From contig CANQDK010000005.1 in the NCBI GenBank assembly GCA_947591785.1, forward strand, positions 46,416 to 110,415: 64,000 nt of DNA, read 5' to 3'. The position numbers were made by a program, and so were the translations under genes. Shown piece by piece: positions 4,930 to 54,403 of the stretch (positions are counted from its first letter, which is position 1; the number at the start of each line of letters is the position of its first letter). The notes under the pieces were generated by a model, which saw nothing but the letters and a program-made list of their open reading frames with translations, ran no database searches and had not been told where the DNA came from. The stretch comes from an uncultured Clostridia bacterium (GTDB taxonomy: Bacteria > Bacillota > Clostridia > Christensenellales > UBA1242).

Positions 4930-5124
4930 ATGAAAGAAGTTTTTATGATTGTAGGGTTTGGTGCAGGGCTAATTACAGGTATGCTGCTCTATAAGCATTG
5001 TGATGATGCAAAAAAAATTGTCAACAAGGGTGAAAAGGCTGTAAAACAAGAAGTTGAAAATCTAAAATCTTCTGTTAAGAAAGAAATTAAACCTAAGAAA
5101 CAAGAAAAATCTGCATCAAAATAA
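4930..5124 (+). CDS. Small YtxH-like membrane-anchored protein
   Basis: 64 residues: an N-terminal glycine-rich transmembrane helix (about 5-22, IVGFGAGLITGMLLY) followed by a charged, lysine-rich amphipathic tail. This layout is typical of YtxH-type small stress-related proteins. Function unknown. GGAGG lies just upstream of the ATG and a clear terminator follows, so it forms its own unit. Confidence 0.7.
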   Translation: MKEVFMIVGFGAGLITGMLLYKHCDDAKKIVNKGEKAVKQEVENLKSSVKKEIKPKKQEKSASK

Positions 5125-8648: not shown

Positions 8649-8672
8649 GTGTATTATGCTTTGCATACTACA
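8649..8672. repeat. Dispersed palindromic element (clpP-clpX gap)
   Basis: GTGTATTATGC-TT-GCATACTACAC is an 11-bp inverted repeat with one mismatch. A related half element (AGTATTATAT) follows. It lies within the clpP-clpX intergenic gap. Confidence 0.7.
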
Positions 8673-15733: not shown

Positions 15734-17812
15734 TTGAAACTTGTTGTTATTGAAGCCCCAGCAAAAAGGGACACTTTAAAAAAATATCTTGGTGACGGTT
15801 ATGAAGTCTTTGCAACAAAAGGGCATATTAGAGATTTGCCTGCAAAGGCATTTGCAATTGACTTAACAAACAATTACGAACCGCATTATGAAATTAACCC
15901 AGACAAAAAAGCTCTTATTGAAGATTTAAAAAAGAAAGCAAAGCGAGCTGACGAAGTCTTGATTGCAACCGACCCTGATAGAGAAGGAGAGGCGATTTCT
16001 TGGCATGTTGCTTATGTTCTTGGGCTTGATCCAAAGACAAAATGCCGAATTCAATTTAATGAAATTTCAAAAAAAGCAGTTCTCAAAGCATTGACAGAAC
16101 CTCGAACAATTGACATTAATCTTGTTAATGCTCAACAGGCAAGGCGTGTTCTTGATAGAATTGTGGGCTATAAGCTTTCACCAATTCTATCACGTAAAAT
16201 TGCACCAAAACTTTCTGCGGGCAGAGTTCAGTCTGTTGCACTTAAACTTGTTGTTGACAGAGAAAAAGAAATTGAAAATTTTAAGCCAGAAGAATATTGG
16301 ACTGTTTCTGCATTGCATGAAAAGAACAAACTCAAATTTAAATCGAATTTGACTTCCTTTAAAGAAAAGAAAATAAAACCAGCAAATCGAGCCGAAGTTG
16401 ATGTTGTTCTTTCTGCTGTTAAAGGAAAAAATTTTGAAGTTGTTGAAATTAAGAAATCGCGAACAAAATCTCATGCACAAGCTCCTTTCACAACAAGCAC
16501 TATGCAACAAGATGCTTTAAACAAGCTTGGAATGAGTTTGCGAAAAACAACTCAATCAGCTCAAGAACTTTATGAAGGTGTTGAAGTTAAGGGTGAAGGT
16601 AAAATTGCACTCATAACTTATATTAGAACTGACAGCACGCGTGTTTCTGTTGATGCACAAAACGCTTGTCGTCAATTTATTGTTGAAAAATATGGCAAAG
16701 ATTATGTTCCTGAAAAACCAAACATCTATGCAAGCAAAAAGAACGCACAAGATGCTCACGAAGCAATAAGGCCAATCAATATGCAAATGACACCAGAGAT
16801 GGTTAAGGACAGTCTTTCAAAAGACAATTATCGACTTTATAAACTTATATATGAGCGATTTATGGCAAGTCAAATGAGTGAAGCGGAATATTCAAATGTT
16901 AATGTGACATTAAATTGCGAAGGATATGAATTTAAAACTGTTGGAAAAACGCTTGAATTTGCTGGATACACAGCAGTTTATAAAGAATTTAATGATGAAG
17001 AAAAAGATTTGAATAAAAACAATTCAGATAAAATTCCTCAACTTAGTGAAGGAGAAACTTTGTCTGCACTTGAAATTAAGGAAGAACAAAAATTCACAAA
17101 ACCACCTGCAAGATTTACCGAAGCCAGTCTTGTTAAGGCAATGGAAGAAAAAGGGATTGGCAGGCCTGCAACTTATGCAGCAACCATAACGATTCTAACT
17201 GCAAGAAACTATTGTTCTAAAGATGGCAAGGCACTTGTTCCAACTGAACTTGGACGAAAGATGGTTGAATATTTGGAAAAATTTTTCAATAGTGTTATTA
17301 ATGTTAAGTTTACTGCACACATGGAAAATCGACTTGACGATATTGCAGAAAATAAAGATGAGTGGCATAGTGTTGTTGACAGTTTTTGGAATGGATTTAA
17401 GGATTTGCTTAAAAATGCCGACTCAAGCAGTTTAACTATGAAAAGCAATCCAATCGAAACTGATATTTTATGTGAGAAGTGTGGGCATAAAATGTTGATT
17501 CGAGAGGGAAGATATGGGAAGTTTTTGGGTTGTTCAAATTTTCCTAAGTGCAGAAATGTTCGCCCTTATGAAGAACATGAGAAAAAATCTGTTTCAAAGT
17601 GTCCTCTTTGTGGAAAGGATGTGTATGCTCTTCGCACAAAACGTGGAAAATTTTTCTATGCTTGCGAAGATAGAGAACATTGCAATTTCATGAGTTGGGA
17701 TATTCCAACAGGGGAGTTGTGTCCAAAATGTAAAAAACCTCTTGTAAAGAGAGGTAAAAATGTGAAGTGTTCTGAATGTGACTATGTTCAGCCAATTGAA
17801 ACAAAAGAGTGA
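15734..17812 (+). CDS. topA: DNA topoisomerase I
   Basis: Type IA topoisomerase that relaxes negative supercoils. TOPRIM domain with VIEAPAKRDTLKKYLG and DPDREGEAISWH. The active-site tyrosine is in ALITYIRTDSTRVS. C-terminal tail of about three C4 zinc ribbons (CEKCGHKM..., CPLCGK..., CPKCKKPL...). 692 residues. TTG start with AAAGGAG upstream. topA next to hslVU matches the Firmicutes topA-codV-hslV-hslU cluster, but the codV/xerC gene is missing here and a recombinase lies at 53 kb instead. Confidence 0.97.
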   Translation: MKLVVIEAPAKRDTLKKYLGDGYEVFATKGHIRDLPAKAFAIDLTNNYEPHYEINPDKKALIEDLKKKAKRADEVLIATDPDREGEAISWHVAYVLGLDPKTKCRIQFNEISKKAVLKALTEPRTIDINLVNAQQARRVLDRIVGYKLSPILSRKIAPKLSAGRVQSVALKLVVDREKEIENFKPEEYWTVSALHEKNKLKFKSNLTSFKEKKIKPANRAEVDVVLSAVKGKNFEVVEIKKSRTKSHAQAPFTTSTMQQDALNKLGMSLRKTTQSAQELYEGVEVKGEGKIALITYIRTDSTRVSVDAQNACRQFIVEKYGKDYVPEKPNIYASKKNAQDAHEAIRPINMQMTPEMVKDSLSKDNYRLYKLIYERFMASQMSEAEYSNVNVTLNCEGYEFKTVGKTLEFAGYTAVYKEFNDEEKDLNKNNSDKIPQLSEGETLSALEIKEEQKFTKPPARFTEASLVKAMEEKGIGRPATYAATITILTARNYCSKDGKALVPTELGRKMVEYLEKFFNSVINVKFTAHMENRLDDIAENKDEWHSVVDSFWNGFKDLLKNADSSSLTMKSNPIETDILCEKCGHKMLIREGRYGKFLGCSNFPKCRNVRPYEEHEKKSVSKCPLCGKDVYALRTKRGKFFYACEDREHCNFMSWDIPTGELCPKCKKPLVKRGKNVKCSECDYVQPIETKE

Positions 17813-18027
17813 ATTGTTTTTAATTTTGAGTCTTTTTATATTCAATTTTGTTAAAAAAAATTATTTATGTCTTTAATTTGTTTTTAAAGAACTCAAAATT
17901 GTGTTATAATTGATTTGTAAAGATTGTTGAAATGAATAAATTTATTTAAATTTAGTCTTATTTGGACAAAGAAAATTTAAGGTAAAAATCATGTTCAACT
18001 AAATTTCTTAGAAATTAAGGAGATTGT

Positions 18028-18567
18028 ATGGAAAGTATGTTTAGAGGCACAACAATTTGTGCTGTAAAGAAAGATGGTAAAATTGCTGTTGCGGGTGATG
18101 GACAAGTTACAATGTCAAATAGTATTATCTTTAAAAACAACGCAAAAAAAGTTAGAAGAATATACAATAATTCTGTTGTTATTGGATTTGCAGGAACTGT
18201 TGCTGATGCTTTTTCTCTATCTGAAAAATTTGAGGGTATGCTCAACAAATTCGCAGGAAATCTTATGCGTAGTGCAGTTGAACTTGCTCAACTATGGCGT
18301 GAAGATAAAGCATCAAGACAACTCGACGCAATGATGATTGTTGCTGACAAAAACCAAATTTTGATTTTGTCTGGAACTGGTGATGTTATCGAACCACAAG
18401 ATGGAATTTGTGCAATTGGTTCAGGTGGAAATTATGCTTTGGCTTCTGCACGTGCTTTAATTCAAAACACAGATTTTTCTGCAAAAGAAATTGCTTATAA
18501 ATCTTTGAAAATTGCAAGTGAAATATGCGTTTTCACAAACGATAACATTATTGTTGAAGAACTATAA
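18028..18567 (+). CDS. hslV: HslV (ClpQ) peptidase subunit
   Basis: Proteasome-like threonine peptidase that works with HslU. The N-terminal stretch [23 protein letters not shown] contains the TT pair whose first threonine becomes the nucleophile after processing. [24 protein letters not shown] is also conserved. 179 residues is normal. An extended -10 (TGTTATAAT, 17902-17910) lies upstream. It pairs with hslU downstream. Confidence 0.96.
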
Positions 18568-18710
18568 TTTTGCTTTAAGTGAAAATTAGAAATTTGTTAA
18601 TTTTAAAATTTGAAAATTTGAAATTGATAAAATATTTGTTGCATTATTGCAAGACAACAATATGATTATTCAAGAAGAAATCTTATATAAATTATTAAAG
18701 GAGTTTTAAA

Positions 18711-20006
18711 ATGAATTATACACCAAAACAAATCGTGGCTGAACTTGATAAATATATTGTCGGACAGACAAAGGCAAAACGTGCGGTTGCTGTTGCTCTT
18801 AGAAATAGATATCGTCGCAGTCGTCTTCCTGCTGAAACCAGAGACGAAATCACTCCAAAAAATATCGTTATGAGTGGGCCAACAGGTGTTGGTAAAACAG
18901 AAATTGCTCGCAGACTTGCAAAGTTGGTTGGTTCTCCTTTTGTTAAGGTTGAAGCAACAAAATATACTGAAGTTGGCTATGTTGGGCGTGACGTTGAAAG
19001 TATGGTGCGTGATCTTGTTGAAGTTGCTGTGAGAATGGTTAAAGACAACAAAAAGAAAGAAGTTGAAGCAAAAGTTATGCCAATTGTTGAAAACAAACTT
19101 GTTGATGCTCTTTTTCAGAACCGCCGCGTAACTATGGTTGACGTCAACAGAGATTCTCTTTTTGATGAATTGCATTCTGGAAAAGTTGAAGATGAAGTTG
19201 TTGAAGTTATTGTATTGGAATCTCCAAAACCTATGATGGCTTTTGGTGGAAACGAAATTAATTTGGGTTCTATGTTTGATGGGTTGACACCACCAAAACA
19301 TAAGAAAAAGAAAATGTCAGTTCGTCATGCAAGAGAAGCACTTTTACAAGAAGAAAGTGACAAAATTATTGATATGGATAATGTAAACGAAGAGGCCATC
19401 GCACTTGCTGAGGAACAGGGGATTATCTTTATTGATGAAATTGATAAGATTATTGGAAAGAGTCAAGCAACAAACAGTGCTGATGTTTCAAGAGAGGGGG
19501 TTCAAAGAGATATTTTGCCAATTGTTGAAGGAAGCACCGTTCCAACAAAATATGGAAATGTGAAAACAGATTTTATTTTGTTTATAGCTGCAGGAGCTTT
19601 TCATGTTGCAAAAATGGAAGATATGATTCCAGAACTTCAGGGGCGTTTTCCAATTAGAGTTGAACTTGAAAGTTTAACAAAAGAAGATTTCAAGAAAATC
19701 TTAACCACTCCAAAGAATGCTGTAACTTTGCAATATTCAAATCTTCTTAAAGTTGATAACATCAATTTGGTGTTTAAAGATGATGCACTTGATGAGATTG
19801 CAGAAATGGCAGAACGAGAAAATGAAACAAGTGAAGATTTGGGTGCAAGGAGATTGCATACAATTATGGAAAGTGTTTTGGAAGATGTTTCTTTTAACGC
19901 AACAGGCGAACATCCAATGCTTGATGTTGTGATTGACAGAACTTATGTTCAAAATGTCTTTAAGGATAAAACACAAAAGTTTGATTTGAAGAAGTATGTA
20001 TTATAA
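18711..20006 (+). CDS. hslU: HslU (ClpY) ATPase subunit
   Basis: AAA+ unfoldase partner of HslV. Walker A GPTGVGKTEIARRLAKL, GYVGRDVESMVRDLVE, an intermediate domain (about 130-230), Walker B IIFIDEIDKI, and a C-terminal peptide (FDLKKYVL) of the kind that inserts into HslV. 431 residues is shorter than E. coli HslU owing to a compact I domain. AAAGGAG precedes the ATG. The 143-bp gap from hslV has no clear terminator. Confidence 0.96.
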   Translation: MNYTPKQIVAELDKYIVGQTKAKRAVAVALRNRYRRSRLPAETRDEITPKNIVMSGPTGVGKTEIARRLAKLVGSPFVKVEATKYTEVGYVGRDVESMVRDLVEVAVRMVKDNKKKEVEAKVMPIVENKLVDALFQNRRVTMVDVNRDSLFDELHSGKVEDEVVEVIVLESPKPMMAFGGNEINLGSMFDGLTPPKHKKKKMSVRHAREALLQEESDKIIDMDNVNEEAIALAEEQGIIFIDEIDKIIGKSQATNSADVSREGVQRDILPIVEGSTVPTKYGNVKTDFILFIAAGAFHVAKMEDMIPELQGRFPIRVELESLTKEDFKKILTTPKNAVTLQYSNLLKVDNINLVFKDDALDEIAEMAERENETSEDLGARRLHTIMESVLEDVSFNATGEHPMLDVVIDRTYVQNVFKDKTQKFDLKKYVL

Positions 20007-23085: not shown

Positions 23086-23099
23086 TTTTGCGAATAGAT
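23086..23099 (+). repeat. Isolated att half-site
   Basis: TTTTGCGAATAGAT is identical to the right half of attR (28748-28761) and lies about 320 bp upstream of attL. The other half of a recombination site is not next to it. Confidence 0.5.
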
Positions 23100-23406: not shown

Positions 23407-23440
23407 CTAACTATGCGTAAAACCTGTCTTTTGAGTATGT
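23407..23440 (+). other. attL, left Xer-type junction
   Basis: The core CGTAAAACCTGTCTTTTG (23416-23433) is shared with attR, and the shared stretch extends left to 23407 with one mismatch. The left arm CTATGCGTAAAA is palindromic with a TTTTG-type right arm around a CCTGTC spacer. The phage-derived right half is less symmetrical (TTTTGAGTATG). Confidence 0.8.
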
Positions 23441-23517
23441 AATGTAATTTGTAATACAAAAATATTGCAAATATACGCAAGTATACATTTTTTGAGATCT
23501 TAAACCAGGAGGGGTAT

Positions 23518-23835
23518 ATGAAAAATGACATCACATTTTGGACAACGATTGCTTCTACAGCAGTTGGAATTGTTGGGTATGTTATCACTATCATTATCAA
23601 CAAGAAGAAAAATAAAGCTAGCAAGCTTGTTGAGCTTGCTAAAATTGTTCAAAAGTTGCCTGAGTTTATTGCTGAAGCTGAAAAAATTTTCGGATCCGGG
23701 AATGGAACTGCTAAATTAACATACGTTTTGAACAAAGTCCAAATAGAATGTTTAAAAAATAAAGTAGAATACAACGAAGAGCAATTCAAAGGTGAAATTG
23801 AAAACATATTAAGCACACCTGAAAAGAAGGCTTAA
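23518..23835 (+). CDS. Prophage small membrane protein (unknown, possibly holin-like)
   Basis: 105 residues: one N-terminal transmembrane helix (about 8-28), a lysine-rich stop (NKKKNK), then an amphipathic helical tail. Such a first ORF is an accessory gene of the phage. The TM-plus-tail plan with LPEFIAEAEKIFGSGNG resembles LLH-type holin-like proteins, but this is tentative. Strong AGGAGGGG site. It is the first gene after attL. Confidence 0.65.
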   Translation: MKNDITFWTTIASTAVGIVGYVITIIINKKKNKASKLVELAKIVQKLPEFIAEAEKIFGSGNGTAKLTYVLNKVQIECLKNKVEYNEEQFKGEIENILSTPEKKA

Positions 23836-23931
23836 ATGACAAAAAAAATGCTTAAAAAGGAAATTGACAAACTTAAGCTTGAAATAGAGCATAATAGGAA
23901 AATTATAAATTTTATTATAAAAAACCTATAA
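23836..23931 (+). CDS. Prophage micro-ORF, 31 aa
   Basis: The ATG follows directly after the stop of the preceding gene and encodes MTKKMLKKEIDKLKLEIEH..., a short basic amphipathic helix. GAAAAGAAGG lies upstream inside the preceding gene. Too short for firm support; translation would be coupled. Function unknown. Confidence 0.4.
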   Translation: MTKKMLKKEIDKLKLEIEHNRKIINFIIKNL

Positions 23932-23954
23932 AAAATCAAAAAAAAGGAGCAAAA

Positions 23955-24074
23955 ATGAAAAAAACCGTTATGAAAAATAAAAGACGTGACCGTGCGTGCT
24001 TTGAAATCACGGCCAACAAAATTCACAAAAAAAATCTTGACACAACACAATCAAAAGGGGGGATTAGATTATGA
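23955..24074 (+). CDS. VP8/J-like small basic DNA-binding protein
   Basis: 39 residues, rich in Lys/Arg, missing from the ORF track because of its size. It ends with the gokushovirus VP8 pattern: K-[IV]-H-KKNL followed by KGGIRL. In microviruses the J/VP8 peptide binds the packaged single-stranded genome inside the capsid. AAAAAGGAG lies upstream; its TGA overlaps the ATG of VP5 (ATGA). Confidence 0.75.
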   Translation: MKKTVMKNKRRDRACFEITANKIHKKNLDTTQSKGGIRL

Positions 24075-24331
24075 AACTTAAACTATTTGCAGTTAAAGAC
24101 ACAGTGCAAGGTGAAATGATGAACCCATTCTTGCTAAGAAACAATGAAGAAGCAAAGAGAACTTTTGCAACAGCAGTAAATTCTGGAAGAGATAATAACA
24201 TCTGTTTATATGCGAAAGATATGCAACTTTTCGAACTTGGCGAGTATGACACAATAACAGGAGAAATAACACCAAAAGTTGAATACGTATGCAGTGGGCT
24301 TGAATTTAAAGAAGAAAAAAAGGAGGCTTAA
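24071..24331 (+). CDS. Gokushovirus VP5 (non-structural, ssDNA synthesis)
   Basis: 86 residues. The layout MKLKLFAVKDTVQGEMMNPF, then EEAKRTFATAVN and FELGEYDTITGEITP, matches the gokushovirus ORF5/VP5 family, linked to single-strand DNA synthesis or control of the strand switch. GGGGGG lies before the overlapping start. Directly followed by VP3. Confidence 0.85.
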   Translation: MKLKLFAVKDTVQGEMMNPFLLRNNEEAKRTFATAVNSGRDNNICLYAKDMQLFELGEYDTITGEITPKVEYVCSGLEFKEEKKEA

Positions 24332-24892
24332 ATGAATTTCAAAAGCTTAACAAATTTACACGAGCCACACAAATTTGCAGAAGGTGGCTTCAAAGAAACT
24401 GTTGACGTTTATGAAGATATAATAAACGAAAAAACAGGAAAAGTTGAAACAAAGAAAACCAAAGAAGAAAACTTCTATGAAAAAATTCAAGAAATGAAAG
24501 AAAGTCAAATGCTAGAAAACATTATCAAGAGATACAACATTGATTTGAATGAAAATCACATCACAGAAATAAGAGAAGAAATTGTTGATATGACACAAAT
24601 TCCAGAAGATTTGATTGAAACATACGCAATGACAAAGAAACTTGAAACAATGTTCAATGAAACAACAGCGGACATTAAAAACCACTTCAAAGACTTTGCC
24701 GGGTTTTTGCAAAGTGTTCAAAAAGGAACTTTACAAAGTGAACTTCAAAGTCTAAGCAAAAGAAAAATAACACAACAACAAATGCCACAACAACAAGTGC
24801 AACAACAAATGCCACAACAAGAAATGCAACCACAACAACAAATAATGCAACAACCACAAAATCAAAATCAAGGGGGAATAATGTATGCCTGA
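24332..24892 (+). CDS. Gokushovirus internal scaffolding protein VP3
   Basis: 186 residues. Acidic/basic helical protein with an N-terminus typical of VP3 (HEPHKFAEGGF) and the DMTQIPEDL segment near residue 90. The C-terminal 40 residues are a glutamine/proline-rich low-complexity tail (QQQMPQQQ repeats) absent from most relatives. It assists procapsid assembly and is lost on maturation. Overlaps VP1 by eight bases. Confidence 0.85.
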   Translation: MNFKSLTNLHEPHKFAEGGFKETVDVYEDIINEKTGKVETKKTKEENFYEKIQEMKESQMLENIIKRYNIDLNENHITEIREEIVDMTQIPEDLIETYAMTKKLETMFNETTADIKNHFKDFAGFLQSVQKGTLQSELQSLSKRKITQQQMPQQQVQQQMPQQEMQPQQQIMQQPQNQNQGGIMYA

Positions 24893-26588
24893 TAATAGAC
24901 AATTTGTTGAGAATATAGCTCAACTGATAAATAGACAACAAAGAACAAAATTCAATTTGACAGGAAACAACGGTGGCCTAAAATTGATGACCATGAACAA
25001 AGGTTATTTATATCCAATTTTCACACTCGAAGTTTTACCGGGGGATACATGGAGAGTTGATATTCAAGCATTAATACGTGCAACAACAATGATAAAACCA
25101 ATCATGAATAATATGTGGGCACAAATTCAATGCTTTTTCGTTCCAAACAGATTGACCTATAAACACTGGGAAGAAGTAATGGGTGAAAATAAGCAAGGGC
25201 CTTGGATAACAAATAAAGCAACTTATGAAGTGCCAAAATTAACAGCACCTGCAGGTGGGTGGAATCCAAAAACACTTGCGGACTATCTCGGAGTTCCAAC
25301 AAAAATTCCAAACTTGGAAATCAACTCGCTATACACAAAAGGTTATGCAAAAATTTGCAACGATTGGTATAGAGACGAAGACAGAATGAACTTCACACAC
25401 ATAACAGATGACGAAAAAAATTTGACAGGTGTAAACACAAAAAACTATGTGACAGACATTGAACTTGGCGGGGCATTATTTCCTGTTGCAAAAGCACATG
25501 ACATATTTACATCTTCTGCAATCGAACCACAAAAAGGCCCAACTGTTATGCTACCACTTGGAACAAGTGCACCAGTAAGTGTAAATGACCTTATGATTTA
25601 TGGAAACGGAATAACAATGGGCTTAACAGATGGAACCAATAAATTAGGCTTTGGCATAAGCACCGACATGAAAGTTTTCCCATCAGATGCCAAATACGGA
25701 AAAAATGTTGGAGATACGACAAGTGCAACAAATCACGGAAAAGCGAATGCATCATTAGGTTTAACAGAAGAACCAACAAAAAGCGGAATAACAGGAAAAG
25801 GCGAAGGAACTGCTGACCTATCACAAGCAACAGGGAGCTCTGTAAATGACCTAAGAATTGCAATAGCACTTCAACAGATGTATGAACTCGATGCACTTGC
25901 AGGCACAAGATACACAGAAATCATATTCTCACATTTTGGAGTAAGAAGCAGTGATGCAAGACTTCAAAGAAGTGAATATCTAGGCGGAAAGAAAGTTCCA
26001 ATCACAGTAACACAAGTCATTCAAAATTCAGAAACAGCAACAACACCACAAGGAAACTTAGCAGGAATGTCACAAAGCTTTGACGGAGACCACTATTTCA
26101 CGAAGTCATTCGAAGAACACGGAATATTGTATGTATGTTGTTGTATAAAAGGCGAAAACATATACCAACAAGGCTTACCTGCAAAATTCAGCAAATTCAA
26201 AAGAACGGACTATTACGACCCACTTTTCGCAAACCTTGGAATGCAACCAATTTTGAATAAAGAAATTTACGCACAGGGCAATTCAAAAGATAATGAAGCA
26301 TTCGGCTACAAAGAAGCATGGGCAGAATATAGATATTTGGAAAAAGAAGTTGCAGGAGAATTCAGAAGCAACTATGACCAATCAATCGATTATTGGCATA
26401 TCGCAAGAGACTTCAAAGAACTTCCAACAAATGGCGAAGAGTTCATAAAAGAAGGGCAATCAAACCTTGACAGAGCATTAACAGTTTCGAGTGAAGAAGC
26501 AGACCAATTCCAATGTGCATTCGCATTAAATGCAGTAGTAACTAGAGTTATGCCACCACACAGTGTGCCAGGATTAAAACGTTTCTAA
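24885..26588 (+). CDS. Gokushovirus major capsid protein VP1
   Basis: 567 residues, jelly-roll capsid protein that forms the T=1 shell. The family pattern is clear: F-x-L-T-x-x-x-GLKLMTMNKGYLYPIFTLEVLPGDTWRVD at the N-terminus, WAQIQCFFVPNRL, a variable threefold-protrusion region (about 200-310, Gly/Thr-rich), and DARLQRSEYLGG. The C-terminal HSVPGLKRF is also typical. Intact frame. This is the strongest evidence that the element is a gokushovirus. Confidence 0.96.
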   Translation: MPDNRQFVENIAQLINRQQRTKFNLTGNNGGLKLMTMNKGYLYPIFTLEVLPGDTWRVDIQALIRATTMIKPIMNNMWAQIQCFFVPNRLTYKHWEEVMGENKQGPWITNKATYEVPKLTAPAGGWNPKTLADYLGVPTKIPNLEINSLYTKGYAKICNDWYRDEDRMNFTHITDDEKNLTGVNTKNYVTDIELGGALFPVAKAHDIFTSSAIEPQKGPTVMLPLGTSAPVSVNDLMIYGNGITMGLTDGTNKLGFGISTDMKVFPSDAKYGKNVGDTTSATNHGKANASLGLTEEPTKSGITGKGEGTADLSQATGSSVNDLRIAIALQQMYELDALAGTRYTEIIFSHFGVRSSDARLQRSEYLGGKKVPITVTQVIQNSETATTPQGNLAGMSQSFDGDHYFTKSFEEHGILYVCCCIKGENIYQQGLPAKFSKFKRTDYYDPLFANLGMQPILNKEIYAQGNSKDNEAFGYKEAWAEYRYLEKEVAGEFRSNYDQSIDYWHIARDFKELPTNGEEFIKEGQSNLDRALTVSSEEADQFQCAFALNAVVTRVMPPHSVPGLKRF

Positions 26589-26598
26589 GGAGTGAAGT

Positions 26599-27042
26599 AT
26601 GGAAAATCCAAACGGAGCAGTTAGAGAAAACTGGATAACAACAAATATAGGAAGCTTCTTCAATGATATAACAGGAGCAACTGCAACAAACAACTTTAAC
26701 GCAAGACAAGCTCAAATCCAAAGAGATTGGGAAATGGAGATGTCAAACACAGCATATCAGCGTGCGGTTGAAGATATGAAAAATGCCGGGTTAAATCCTG
26801 CTATGTTATATCAAAGCGGTGGACAAGGAGCAAGCACACCATCAGGAGCAAATGCAACAGGCCAAAAAGGCGGAATTGCAATGAACCTAATAGGACAAAC
26901 TGCAAACCTTGTAAACTCAATCACAAACGCGAGAAAAGTCGATGCAATTACAAAACATGACGAAATAAAATCAAATGACGTCTCAAGACTTTATAGAACA
27001 ACTGCAAGAATTGCAGAAATGTTAGCAAAATTTATGAGCTAG
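26599..27042 (+). CDS. Gokushovirus DNA pilot protein VP2
   Basis: 147 residues. The hallmark QRDWEMEMSNTAYQRAVEDMKNAGLNPAMLY and the following GGQGASTPSGA are diagnostic of VP2, the minor spike/pilot that helps the genome enter the cell. It is shorter than many VP2 proteins because the C-terminal helical part is reduced. AAGGAG lies upstream. Its stop overlaps the outer arm of the cloverleaf structure. Confidence 0.9.
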   Translation: MENPNGAVRENWITTNIGSFFNDITGATATNNFNARQAQIQRDWEMEMSNTAYQRAVEDMKNAGLNPAMLYQSGGQGASTPSGANATGQKGGIAMNLIGQTANLVNSITNARKVDAITKHDEIKSNDVSRLYRTTARIAEMLAKFMS

Positions 27043-27172
27043 AATCAACAAAAGTGACACGCTGGTGTCACTTAGCCACTAAATAAACAAGTATATAAAC
27101 ATGGCTAATTTAATAAATAACCTGCGTGTGCACGCACGCACGCGAGAGCGTTTATTAAATTTTGTTGATTCT
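27041..27172. repeat. Contiguous four-way-junction inverted-repeat structure
   Basis: The outer 13-bp arms are perfect (AGAATCAACAAAA 27041-27053; TTTTGTTGATTCT 27160-27172). Three hairpins fill the interval without a single unpaired base between them: GTGACAC/GTGTCAC (27054-27071), TTAGCCA/TGGCTAA (27072-27108) and TTTAATAAA/TTTATTAAA (27109-27159). The last one encloses a GC-rich GCGTGTGCACGC core. Placement just before the rep gene suggests a replication or packaging origin; the function is inferred. Confidence 0.85.
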
Positions 27173-27185
27173 TAAGGAGTGAAGA

Positions 27186-28217
27186 ATGATAAGTTGTCCA
27201 AGACCGATGCACGCGTTCTTCACAGGTGAGAAAACCGCCGGGGGTGGTGAAAAATTGATTTTCCGAGACAGATTCACGGAAGAATTAAAATATATGCACC
27301 ACCTTCCAAAAGGCGGAGATGTTGAAGTAACGCTGACAGAATATGTTGAAATTCCCTGCGGGAACTGTGAAATTTGCAAAGCAAACCAAGCAAAAGCAAA
27401 AGCAGAAAGAGCAATAGCAGAGGCAATGAGTTGGGAACACAACGAAGTCATTAACTTAACTTACAACAACGAAAACCTACCAAAAAAGAAAAGACCAGAC
27501 GGAACGGAAGTAGCAACGTTAAATTATAAAGACGTTCAAGACTTCAAAAAAAGACTTTTGAAACAGTGGAAACAAAAATATAATGCAAATGGAATAAGAT
27601 TTCTATGTGCTTGTGAATATGGTGAAAAATATCAAAGACCACACTATCACTTAATTATGTTCAACTTTGAAGCACATGACAAGAAATTTTATGGCTACAC
27701 GTTAAAAGGCTCAAAAGAATGGGGTAGTGAAGAAATTGCTAAAATTTGGGGCAAAGGTAACATCACTATTGGAGAAGTTACACCGGCAACAATTCAGTAT
27801 GTTGCTAATTACTGTTTGAAGAAATTCAAAGGAAAAGAAGCAAAAGGTTATTACAAAGACCTTGGAATTGAACCAGAAAAGGTAACGTCAAGCAATAGAA
27901 AGGGCCTTGCGGGCGATTTTCTTGAAAAAAGGATAGAATTATACAAAAACACAGGAAAGTGCTTTGTAGGCACTGAAAACGGGCTTAAAACAATAGGTGT
28001 AAACAAATACTTTGACCAAAGAATAGCAAAAATTTATGGTGAAGATGTTTTGAAACAAATCAAAGAAGAAAGAATGCAACTTGCTAGCGACAGAGAAAAA
28101 ACAAGAGCATTCATAACAGGAATTGACATCGAAACACAAAGAGAAAATGATGAAAGACTGTTCCTAGAAAAAATAAAATCTGCCAAACAAAGAACATTTA
28201 AAAGCACAGGTTATTAA
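27186..28217 (+). CDS. Gokushovirus replication initiation protein VP4
   Basis: 343 residues, HUH endonuclease that nicks the viral origin to start rolling-circle replication. Motifs: cysteine pair PCGNCEICK (about 58-66), HUH motif RPHYHLIMF (about 150), and the tyrosine motif YVANYCLKK (about 205) with the nucleophile tyrosine(s). AAGGAG precedes the ATG and lies just after the cloverleaf. Stop TAA falls inside the loop of its own terminator. Confidence 0.95.
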   Translation: MISCPRPMHAFFTGEKTAGGGEKLIFRDRFTEELKYMHHLPKGGDVEVTLTEYVEIPCGNCEICKANQAKAKAERAIAEAMSWEHNEVINLTYNNENLPKKKRPDGTEVATLNYKDVQDFKKRLLKQWKQKYNANGIRFLCACEYGEKYQRPHYHLIMFNFEAHDKKFYGYTLKGSKEWGSEEIAKIWGKGNITIGEVTPATIQYVANYCLKKFKGKEAKGYYKDLGIEPEKVTSSNRKGLAGDFLEKRIELYKNTGKCFVGTENGLKTIGVNKYFDQRIAKIYGEDVLKQIKEERMQLASDREKTRAFITGIDIETQRENDERLFLEKIKSAKQRTFKSTGY

Positions 28218-28236
28218 GCTTGTGCTTTTTCTTTTT
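28200..28236 (+). terminator. Terminator at the VP4 end
   Basis: AAAAGCACA (28200-28208) and TGTGCTTTT (28221-28229) form a perfect nine-base-pair stem followed by TCTTTTT. The VP4 stop codon is in the loop. Confidence 0.85.
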
Positions 28237-28253
28237 CCAAAAAGAAACAAAAA

Positions 28254-28395
28254 GGCTCCGCAAAATTACGACATTTGTCACAAATCTCTATTTTGCTCGT
28301 TCTCCCTAGGCGGGAAGCCTGAGTGTGCAGGCTGTCGGCCTCATTGTCGGCCCGGCTAGTGCGAGCGGGCAGTTTCCGTTAGCTCGTCAGCACAG
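28254..28395. other. GC-rich hairpin cluster in the phage non-coding region
   Basis: This stretch has no ORF and is much richer in G+C than its surroundings. It contains GCCTG/CAGGC (28317-28332), GCCCG/CGGGC (28350-28370), a duplicated TGTCGGCC, and a palindromic GACATTTGTC. Such clusters in ssDNA phages often act in complementary-strand initiation or packaging; here the role is inferred. Confidence 0.65.
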
Positions 28396-28440
28396 AACAA
28401 TCAAAAGAAAAAAATATTTAACTTTTTTTGGCAAAATTAG

Positions 28441-28482
28441 TTGACAAACAAAAATAACATAATTATAATACAAAATGTATTA
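28441..28482 (+). promoter_or_regulatory. Promoter and operator-like palindrome of the RHH gene
   Basis: TTGACA (28441-28446), 17 bp, TATAAT (28464-28469). The perfect palindrome TAATACA-AAA-TGTATTA (28466-28482) overlaps the -10 and the start point. This is the expected position of an autoregulatory operator. Confidence 0.75.
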
Positions 28483-28525
28483 CAAAAATAAATACAAATT
28501 TATATCAATAAAAGGAGGTGAAAAA

Positions 28526-28675
28526 ATGACAAAGGTTCTTTACCAAGTTAGACTTGACGAAGATATAGTGCAAGGAATTGAAACAATCGCTAAACAAAAA
28601 AATAGAAAAAAAAGCGAAATTGTTAGAAAAATTCTTGAAAATTATGTTGAAAATTACAATTTATACAACAAATAA
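28526..28675 (+). CDS. Prophage ribbon-helix-helix regulator (CopG/Arc type)
   Basis: 49 residues. A short beta strand (KVLYQVRLDED) followed by two helices (IVQGIETIAKQKN, KKSEIVRKILENYVENY) is the RHH DNA-binding fold. ATG at 28526 follows AAAGGAGGTG; the track start is too early. It lies between the phage hairpin region and attR, with its own strong promoter and a palindrome over the -10. A lysogeny or copy-number repressor is plausible but unproven. Confidence 0.85.
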   Translation: MTKVLYQVRLDEDIVQGIETIAKQKNRKKSEIVRKILENYVENYNLYNK

Positions 28676-28685
28676 AAAAAACAAA

Positions 28686-28720
28686 ATATTGTATGAATTA
28701 TGTTGCATAATACACTATAT
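28686..28720. repeat. Dispersed palindromic element, copy inside prophage next to attR
   Basis: TATTGTATGAATTATG and TTGCATAATACACTATAT match the dispersed element. It sits just left of the attR core, at a position similar to the copy left of attL. Confidence 0.55.
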
Positions 28721-28725
28721 CTAAC

Positions 28726-28761
28726 CTAACTATTCGTAAAACCTGTCTTTTGCGAATAGAT
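28726..28761 (+). other. attR, right Xer-type junction
   Basis: CTATTCGTAAAA, spacer CCTGTC, TTTTGCGAATAG (28730-28759): the two 12-bp arms are complementary at 11 of 12 positions. This 12-6-12 layout is that of a Xer/dif site with nearly identical arms. The core is shared with attL. Confidence 0.85.
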
Positions 28762-53362: not shown

Positions 53363-54403
53363 ATGAAAAATCTTTCCTACTATGCCAAACGTGACTTGAA
53401 AAATATGCAAAAAATAGGTTCTTATCTCCAAAATCTACCAGATTTTTGCTATGATTTCTTCACAGGAATTGAAAACAACACCTCAACCCTAACTCGAGTC
53501 AATTACGCTATGGATTTGGCTGTTTTTTTTGATTACCTTGAAAAATATGTTATTAAAAAACCAAAAGCTGAAATCACTCTTGCGGACTTAGAAAAATTGG
53601 AAGCTCGAAACATTGAAAACTACCTTTCCTATCTCTCCTATTATGAGATAAATGACAAAATGCAAAGAAACACAGAACGAGGGAAAGCCCGAAAACTTGC
53701 ATCAGTAAGGAGTTTTTTTAAATATTTGTTTGACCATGATATGTTGTCAAGTAATGTTGCAAGCAAAATAAGAACCCCAAAACTTCATAATAAAGAAATC
53801 ATTAGACTTGAGGAAGACGAAGTTGAACGTATGCTAGATGCAGTTCAAAGTCCAACCACTTTTTCAAAGCGTCAAAAAAATTATAACAAACACACACAGG
53901 AAAGAGATAATGCAATTGTAACACTTTTTCTTGGAACAGGAATTCGTATTTCAGAACTTGTAGGACTTAATATTGAAGATTTTGATTTTTCACAAAATGC
54001 TTTTAAAGTGACAAGAAAAGGTGGAAATCAAACAATATTATATTTTTCATTGGAAGTTAAAACAGCACTTGAAGAATGGCTCGAAAAACGTAAAACCTTG
54101 AAACTTGACCCTGATGAAAATGCGATGTTTGTGTCACTGCAAAATAAAAGAATCTGTGTGAGAGCAGTTGAAAATCTTGTAAAAAAATTTGCAAAAGAAT
54201 CCACCCCTTTAAAGAAAATATCTCCACACAAACTTCGTTCAACCTTTGGCACAAACTTATACCGCGAAACAAAAGACATTTATATTGTTGCGGATGTTCT
54301 TGGGCATAAAGATGTCAACACAACCAAGCGTCATTATGCTGCAATAAGTGAAGATATGAGAAAAAGCGTTGCTGGAAAAATTAAAATACATAGAGCAGAC
54401 TGA
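53363..54403 (+). CDS. XerS-like tyrosine recombinase
   Basis: Tyrosine site-specific recombinase, probably the chromosome-dimer resolvase. N-terminal SAM-like domain with LQNLPDFCYDFF and STLTRVNYAMDLAVFFDYL, which looks closer to XerS than to XerC/D. Catalytic set: Arg in GTGIRISELVGL, Lys in VTRKGG, HKLR (His-x-x-Arg), LGH and Tyr in TTKRHYA. 346 residues, longer than XerC/D (about 300) and near XerS (356). Stand-alone gene; candidate integrator of the microvirus. Confidence 0.88.
   Translation: MKNLSYYAKRDLKNMQKIGSYLQNLPDFCYDFFTGIENNTSTLTRVNYAMDLAVFFDYLEKYVIKKPKAEITLADLEKLEARNIENYLSYLSYYEINDKMQRNTERGKARKLASVRSFFKYLFDHDMLSSNVASKIRTPKLHNKEIIRLEEDEVERMLDAVQSPTTFSKRQKNYNKHTQERDNAIVTLFLGTGIRISELVGLNIEDFDFSQNAFKVTRKGGNQTILYFSLEVKTALEEWLEKRKTLKLDPDENAMFVSLQNKRICVRAVENLVKKFAKESTPLKKISPHKLRSTFGTNLYRETKDIYIVADVLGHKDVNTTKRHYAAISEDMRKSVAGKIKIHRAD

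Follow-up and report, generated by a model that had tools for sequence, protein, structure and literature searches.

A symmetric dif site and a lone XerS-like recombinase in relatives of Christensenella, and their probable use by an integrase-less microvirus

Chromosome dimer resolution by a single recombinase is known from few lineages, and the hosts of uncultured gut gokushoviruses are mostly unknown. The XerL-dif system of Legionella and Coxiella combines a single recombinase with uninterrupted palindromic arms; xerL lies more than 400 kb from dif in L. pneumophila, and weakening of one of the sites flanking the Legionella element LME-1 reduced excision (PMC9765430). The XerS site of streptococci and lactococci, difSL, is 31 bp long and has imperfect arms of unequal sequence around an 11-bp centre, and the arms of difH, the XerH site of Campylobacter and Helicobacter, are also unequal and imperfect (PMC5357621). 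Integrase-less microviruses are known from dif sites as well. Enterobacterial gokushovirus prophages at XerCD dif need XerC, XerD and both motif arms and have one conserved and one variable flanking site (PMC7062461), and microvirus proviruses have been described at dif in Bacteroidetes (PMC3091885). Our literature search found no paper pairing Christensenella with Xer and dif, nor XerS with Christensenellales.

The whole 64-kb stretch of DNA analyzed here (the window) carries a complete-looking prophage of a gokushovirus-type microvirus on its plus strand (23429-28741), measuring 5319 bp from attL to attR and lacking an integrase gene. Its genes, all on the plus strand, encode a holin-like phage ORF (23518-23835; phrog_6918 holin, E 3.4e-10), a Chp2-type internal scaffolding protein (24332-24892; PF09675 Chlamy_scaf, 45.8 bits, cut-off 25), the major capsid protein VP1 (24885-26588; PF02305 Phage_F, 450 bits), a DNA pilot protein (26599-27042; phrog_11693, E 6.8e-25), a rolling-circle replication initiator, Rep (27186-28217; PF23343, 63.1 bits; phrog_942), and a small ribbon-helix-helix protein (28526-28675; PF01402, 23.1 bits, cut-off 20.5). 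The Phage_F capsid, Chp2-type scaffold, pilot protein and Rep are those of gokushovirus-type Microviridae, and the nearest database relatives are gut Microviridae (VP1 identity 78.5% and 75%). Neither the ORFs nor profile searches revealed a recombinase gene between attL and attR, and the element has the two features of an IMEX, no integrase of its own and dif-like att sites at both ends.

The right end of the prophage, attR (28730-28759, plus strand), reads CTATTCGTAAAA CCTGTC TTTTGCGAATAG and consists of a phage arm (28730-28741), the hexamer CCTGTC (28742-28747) and a host arm (28748-28759), an exact match throughout. The preliminary description had reported a near-perfect 12-6-12 palindrome with arms one base apart within 28726-28761, and this is what we find: 11 of 12 arm positions are symmetric, the sole mismatch being T/C at arm position 8. 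The left end, attL (23411-23440, plus strand; direct repeat D4), is an imperfect copy in the same direction 5319 bp leftward, CTATGCGTAAAA CCTGTC TTTTGAGTATGT, made up of a host arm (23411-23422), the hexamer (23423-23428) and a degenerate phage arm (23429-23440). Read along the phage genes, the phage attachment site is CTATTCGTAAAA CCTGTC TTTTGAGTATGT. The rightward flank of attR resembles the dif flank of empty relatives, and the left flank of attL can be aligned to the dif flank of relatives. Exchange within the hexamer keeps the left arm of the host in attL and its right arm in attR, and the empty host site can be rebuilt as CTATGCGTAAAA CCTGTC TTTTGCGAATAG, which would be symmetric at 10 of 12 positions. 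This rebuilt site is identical to the intact dif of a genome of the same genus (G003), where the flanks match too. The palindrome first noted is a hybrid of a phage left arm and a host right arm, slightly more symmetric than the host dif; its assignment as an att/dif site holds for attR, but the host's own dif is symmetric at only 10/12. The genome search proposed for it uncovered no second copy within 3 mismatches, either in the 64-kb window or in the 1.2-Mb genome.

Two other sequence features lie close to these sites. A lone exact half-site, TTTTGCGAATAGAT, occurs right after iscU (23086-23099; exact arm TTTTGCGAATAG at 23086). We considered it as the remnant of an old attachment event, and chance is also possible, with 0.33 exact arms expected per 64 kb. 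A dispersed palindromic element, GCATAMTACACAAAATNTNG, has 15 matches against 1.06 expected (positions 8663, 14550, 20057, 28705, 34869, 50749 and others) and is also found immediately left of dif in the window and in relatives, and within the phage left of attR.

We searched for a degenerate form of the dif motif in 101 genomes from the order of Christensenella (by our reading, GTDB Christensenellales), namely the window's own genome and 100 relatives, most of which, including most of those from the same genus, appear to be metagenome assemblies. It was present in 92 of the 101, essentially once per genome, and the named genomes among the matches listed include Christensenella intestinihominis and Christensenella sp. 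Marseille-P2438. The reversed pattern, used as a control, matched in only one genome of the set, and elsewhere in the phylum 2 of 398 genomes had the motif (Fisher p 5e-87 versus 92/101). GC skew in the window changes from plus to minus at ~28 kb, at the palindrome, and genes converge there. In two complete relatives, with skew taken from 20-kb samples around the genome rather than base by base, the switch falls between 2210 and 2340 kb in G090, whose site is at 2270.6 kb, and between 20 and 120 kb in G092, whose site is at 25.3 kb. These chromosomes carry one dif at the skew switch, as in single-recombinase Xer/dif systems, and the palindromic motif is dif. A better, unrelated dif at the switch had been raised beforehand as a counter-finding; the palindrome itself occupies the switch in the window and in both complete relatives.

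Further dif-like sites were seen in individual genomes. Contig 1 of G090 has a second, weaker site at 1776190, CACTTCGCTAAA GTTTAG TTTTGCGAATAG, possibly belonging to another element. A perfect palindrome of the same type, with hexamer CGCGGG, occurs at a local skew switch in Butyrivibrio sp. MC2021 (L133:1446), and no XerS-like gene was found in that locus. In a class-level relative, G347, a different palindrome, CTATCGGAAAAA CAGATA TTTATCCGATAG, lies 108 bp from a XerS-like gene (L285:2580), and site and enzyme may have changed together there.

The only Xer-like gene in the window (53363-54403, plus strand) encodes a 346-aa tyrosine recombinase with PF00589 and PF02899 domains, in which R195, K219, H289, R292, H315 and Y325 are present and, in an alignment of 15 sequences, invariant. 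XerS is its best curated model, at 187.9 bits under a cut-off of 267, ahead of XerC (174 bits) and XerD (157 bits). Orthologues occur in nearly all relatives, and those of order members score 171-200 bits on the XerS model. By sequence the protein is XerS-like, yet we do not class it as XerS because its score is below the cut-off and its site is without the 11-bp centre of difSL. The earlier account of one XerS-like recombinase in the window stands as to gene number and best model, short of the model's own threshold. An FtsK with a gamma domain is also encoded. As had been remarked, there is no XerC beside hslVU: in the topA-hslV-hslU cluster (15734-20006, plus strand), topA ends at 17812 and hslV starts at 18028, and the gap of only 215 bp leaves no codV there.

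A second Xer gene, which the preliminary description had proposed seeking across the genome, did not emerge. The genome encodes four PF00589 proteins including the 346-aa Xer. Those of 309, 461 and 359 aa score as integrases, reaching 85, 63 and 38 bits with the XerC model and 60, 58 and 44 bits with the XerD model. Two of them have a Phage_int_SAM_3 N-terminal domain, and the third has a weak match to a phage-integrase central domain. The genome thus contains only one Xer-type recombinase, instead of the two paralogous recombinases of XerCD/dif, and XerD exceeded its model cut-off in 0 of the 101 genomes of the order. The presence of the xer gene and that of the dif site go together across the relatives (p 1.5e-4), and the dif motif was recovered in most of 37 genomes from other families when the few kb around xer were scanned without bias for inverted repeats of 12-6-12 form. 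Among the matches listed, xer lies ~30-850 bp from dif in most named genomes that have both on the locus, C. intestinihominis and C. sp. Marseille-P2438 among them. In the window the two are 24.6 kb apart, and in the same genus they are non-adjacent, separated by kilobases to tens of kilobases.

The two arms of this dif look equivalent from their pattern of sequence change. In 33 genomes from other families they agree at 11.33 of 12 positions on average and are perfect in 20; when right arms were shuffled between genomes the mean was 10.05 of 12 (z = 9.0), a shuffle that ignores kinship in a set spanning ~30 families. Over 30 distinct sites, 96.7% of cells are paired and two-sided changes occur in 6 of 12 pairs, with changes at positions 1, 2, 3, 5, 8 and 9 mirrored in the opposite arm. 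The covariation score of 0.262 (0.096 in shuffles) was reached in 0 of 500 shuffles and collapses once the register is slid. Position 8 shows a bias, left T/right C being commoner than the reverse (34 versus 4 in two sets). Roughly one site in three shows this one-directional asymmetry, which leaves room for some difference in how the two arms are bound.

In G044, another genome of the same genus, the same dif is occupied by a related microvirus prophage (82% identity in VP1) that lies between iscU and sel1-like/tgt genes as in the window but points the other way. Its attachment site along the phage genes, CTATTCGCAAAA GACAGG TTAGGCAAATGT, has the good arm on the same side as the window phage and a degenerate other arm, with the hexamers in opposite directions. 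The good arm of the phage has replaced the left host arm in the window and the right host arm in G044. Prophages at dif in both orientations make the host arms look interchangeable; insertion of the good arm on either host side should fail with dissimilar XerC and XerD arms and should work with one recombinase. Inversion of the G044 prophage through its ends after insertion was rejected, as the end sites are direct, not inverted. The opposite prophage is known from one assembly, though the occurrence of both hexamer directions among free phages lends it support. A search for more prophages found the capsid gene in only 2 of the 101 genomes of the order.

A half-dif occurs in 6 of the 14 nearest annotated microviruses (L306, L307, L308, L309, L356 and L359), in the gap downstream of Rep; five of these six have an exact arm, against 0.015 per genome expected by chance. 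The IMG/VR microvirus L363 has one as well, making seven free microviruses in all, and no half-dif was found in the IMG/VR capsid matches L105-L108. The hexamers of the free phages run in both directions, GACAGC in L309 and L356 and NCTGTS in the others. A further microvirus prophage adjoins a dif-like site on IMG/VR contigs L303-L305, with serS and a XerS-like gene downstream in L304. On L304, exact single arms were seen at 4982 and 3449 near the XerS-like gene, one of them ~48 bp before its start, and autoregulation is possible.

Site structure, conservation, arm covariation, gene linkage, terminus position, the two opposite prophages and the half-dif of free phages, all read from sequence, make it very probable that a single XerS-like Xer acts on a palindromic dif and that a half-dif microvirus integrates through this host Xer, in line with the suggestion of the preliminary description that the phage may exploit a single-Xer dif. 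For binding, catalysis, FtsK dependence and lysogen stability we infer the following course. Two monomers of the one recombinase would bind the equivalent 12-bp arms of dif, two dif sites would synapse, and strands would be exchanged across the 6-bp centre, probably under the control of FtsK and presumably on its arrival. Because the arms are equivalent, the polarity of the site would come mainly from the hexamer, with the slight T/C bias at position 8. The integrase-less microvirus would bring a half-dif in which a good arm and a matching hexamer are combined with a degenerate other arm, and the host Xer would recombine it into dif to leave one strong and one weak site. Such a pair should favor stable lysogeny through the weakened flanking site, by analogy with LME-1, with a working dif remaining, and the direction of the hexamer in the phage would set the orientation of the prophage.

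This single-Xer reading has to be weighed against several others. It is quite unlikely that the system is a two-recombinase XerC/XerD one, with the second enzyme among the other tyrosine recombinases or missed in the draft and with a fortuitous similarity of the arms. The three further PF00589 proteins, the state of the source assembly (a 16-contig draft at 98% completeness) and the additional XerD-like genes of a few order members (below cut-off, in G064, G068 and G089) leave some room for it, but those three proteins fall far below the Xer models and have integrase-type N-terminal domains, and XerD passes its cut-off nowhere in the order. If each arm had its own protein, neither the compensatory changes in both arms (30-33 genomes) nor the good phage arm on either host side would be expected. 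Only a slim chance attaches to a single-Xer host whose microvirus enters dif by homologous recombination or with the help of a different recombinase. The prophage, encoding no recombinase, would be compatible with this; however, attL and attR are hybrids with an intact hexamer, differing in their arms alone, as conservative Xer exchange predicts, and E. coli gokushoviruses integrated only when both Xer proteins of the host were present and the dif arms of the phage were complete (PMC7062461).

Symmetry alone is little proof of a recombination site, since repeats of 11/12 and 12/12 are also present elsewhere in the 8-kb loci of relatives; it is conservation across the order that lifts the palindrome above chance. 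Inverted repeats are common near gene ends and the site lies between convergent genes, yet it is barely conceivable that the palindrome is a terminator or the operator of a dimeric repressor, matched by the prophage ends through coincidence, when it occurs essentially once in each of 92 of 101 genomes at the replication terminus, adjoins the recombinase gene in many families, is joined to phage DNA at the hexamer in two opposite prophages and recurs as a half-copy in free microviruses.

With a single Xer preferred, the locus is best read as a palindromic dif parallel to Legionella XerL/LME-1 and exploited by microviruses, likened to them by features of site and element. A single recombinase, palindromic arms, order-wide conservation and a site at the skew switch are common to both, and the arms are uninterrupted inverted repeats as in XerL (all 12 positions symmetric in 20 of 33 sites from other families; window sites 10/12 and 11/12). 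LME-1 likewise brings a truncated sequence that mimics dif, and after its insertion one flanking site is intact and the other weakened. The present hosts belong to another phylum, their xer and dif are tightly linked in most families, and the element is a microvirus. XerS-difSL shares the best-matching model, a similar protein length (346 aa here versus 356) and, in many families though not in the window, a gene adjoining the site, but the recombinase here is under the XerS cut-off and the site is a symmetric 12-6-12. XerH-difH shares a single recombinase with its gene near the site, whereas similarity to the solved XerH is weak (E 2.7e-11). The earlier suggestion that symmetry suits a one-recombinase XerS or XerH system is supported as to the single Xer, but the published sites of XerS and XerH show partial symmetry only, and uninterrupted symmetry therefore marks XerL of Legionella and Coxiella instead. 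XerCD-dif of E. coli and B. subtilis (CodV/RipX) has in common a terminus site of ~28-30 bp, a 6-bp centre and the FtsK gamma domain, and differs in that no XerC/XerD pair passes the cut-offs here and the arms are equivalent. Enterobacterial gokushoviruses follow the same phage strategy with different host machinery: they and the Bacteroidetes proviruses face two recombinases and distinct arms, whereas here there is one recombinase and insertion in both orientations.

We consider it likely that the order of Christensenella is a separate single-Xer/dif lineage in which the arms are interchangeable and the hexamer alone orients the site, so that a microvirus half-dif can be used either way and identifies hosts. 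The single-recombinase systems would then include an entire order of bacteria common in the gut, whose dif is almost ideally symmetric, and this opens the question of how a symmetric dif acquires direction and first-strand choice. Microvirus lysogeny would be extended to a single-Xer host with both insertion orientations, and the half-dif would serve as a short sequence tag by which uncultured gut gokushoviruses can be tied to relatives of Christensenella. Dif-like sites were also seen on two tailed-phage contigs with terminase genes (L301:2774 and L302:10730), where CTATTCGCAAAA CTTGTG TTTATCGAATAG lies beside the small terminase gene.
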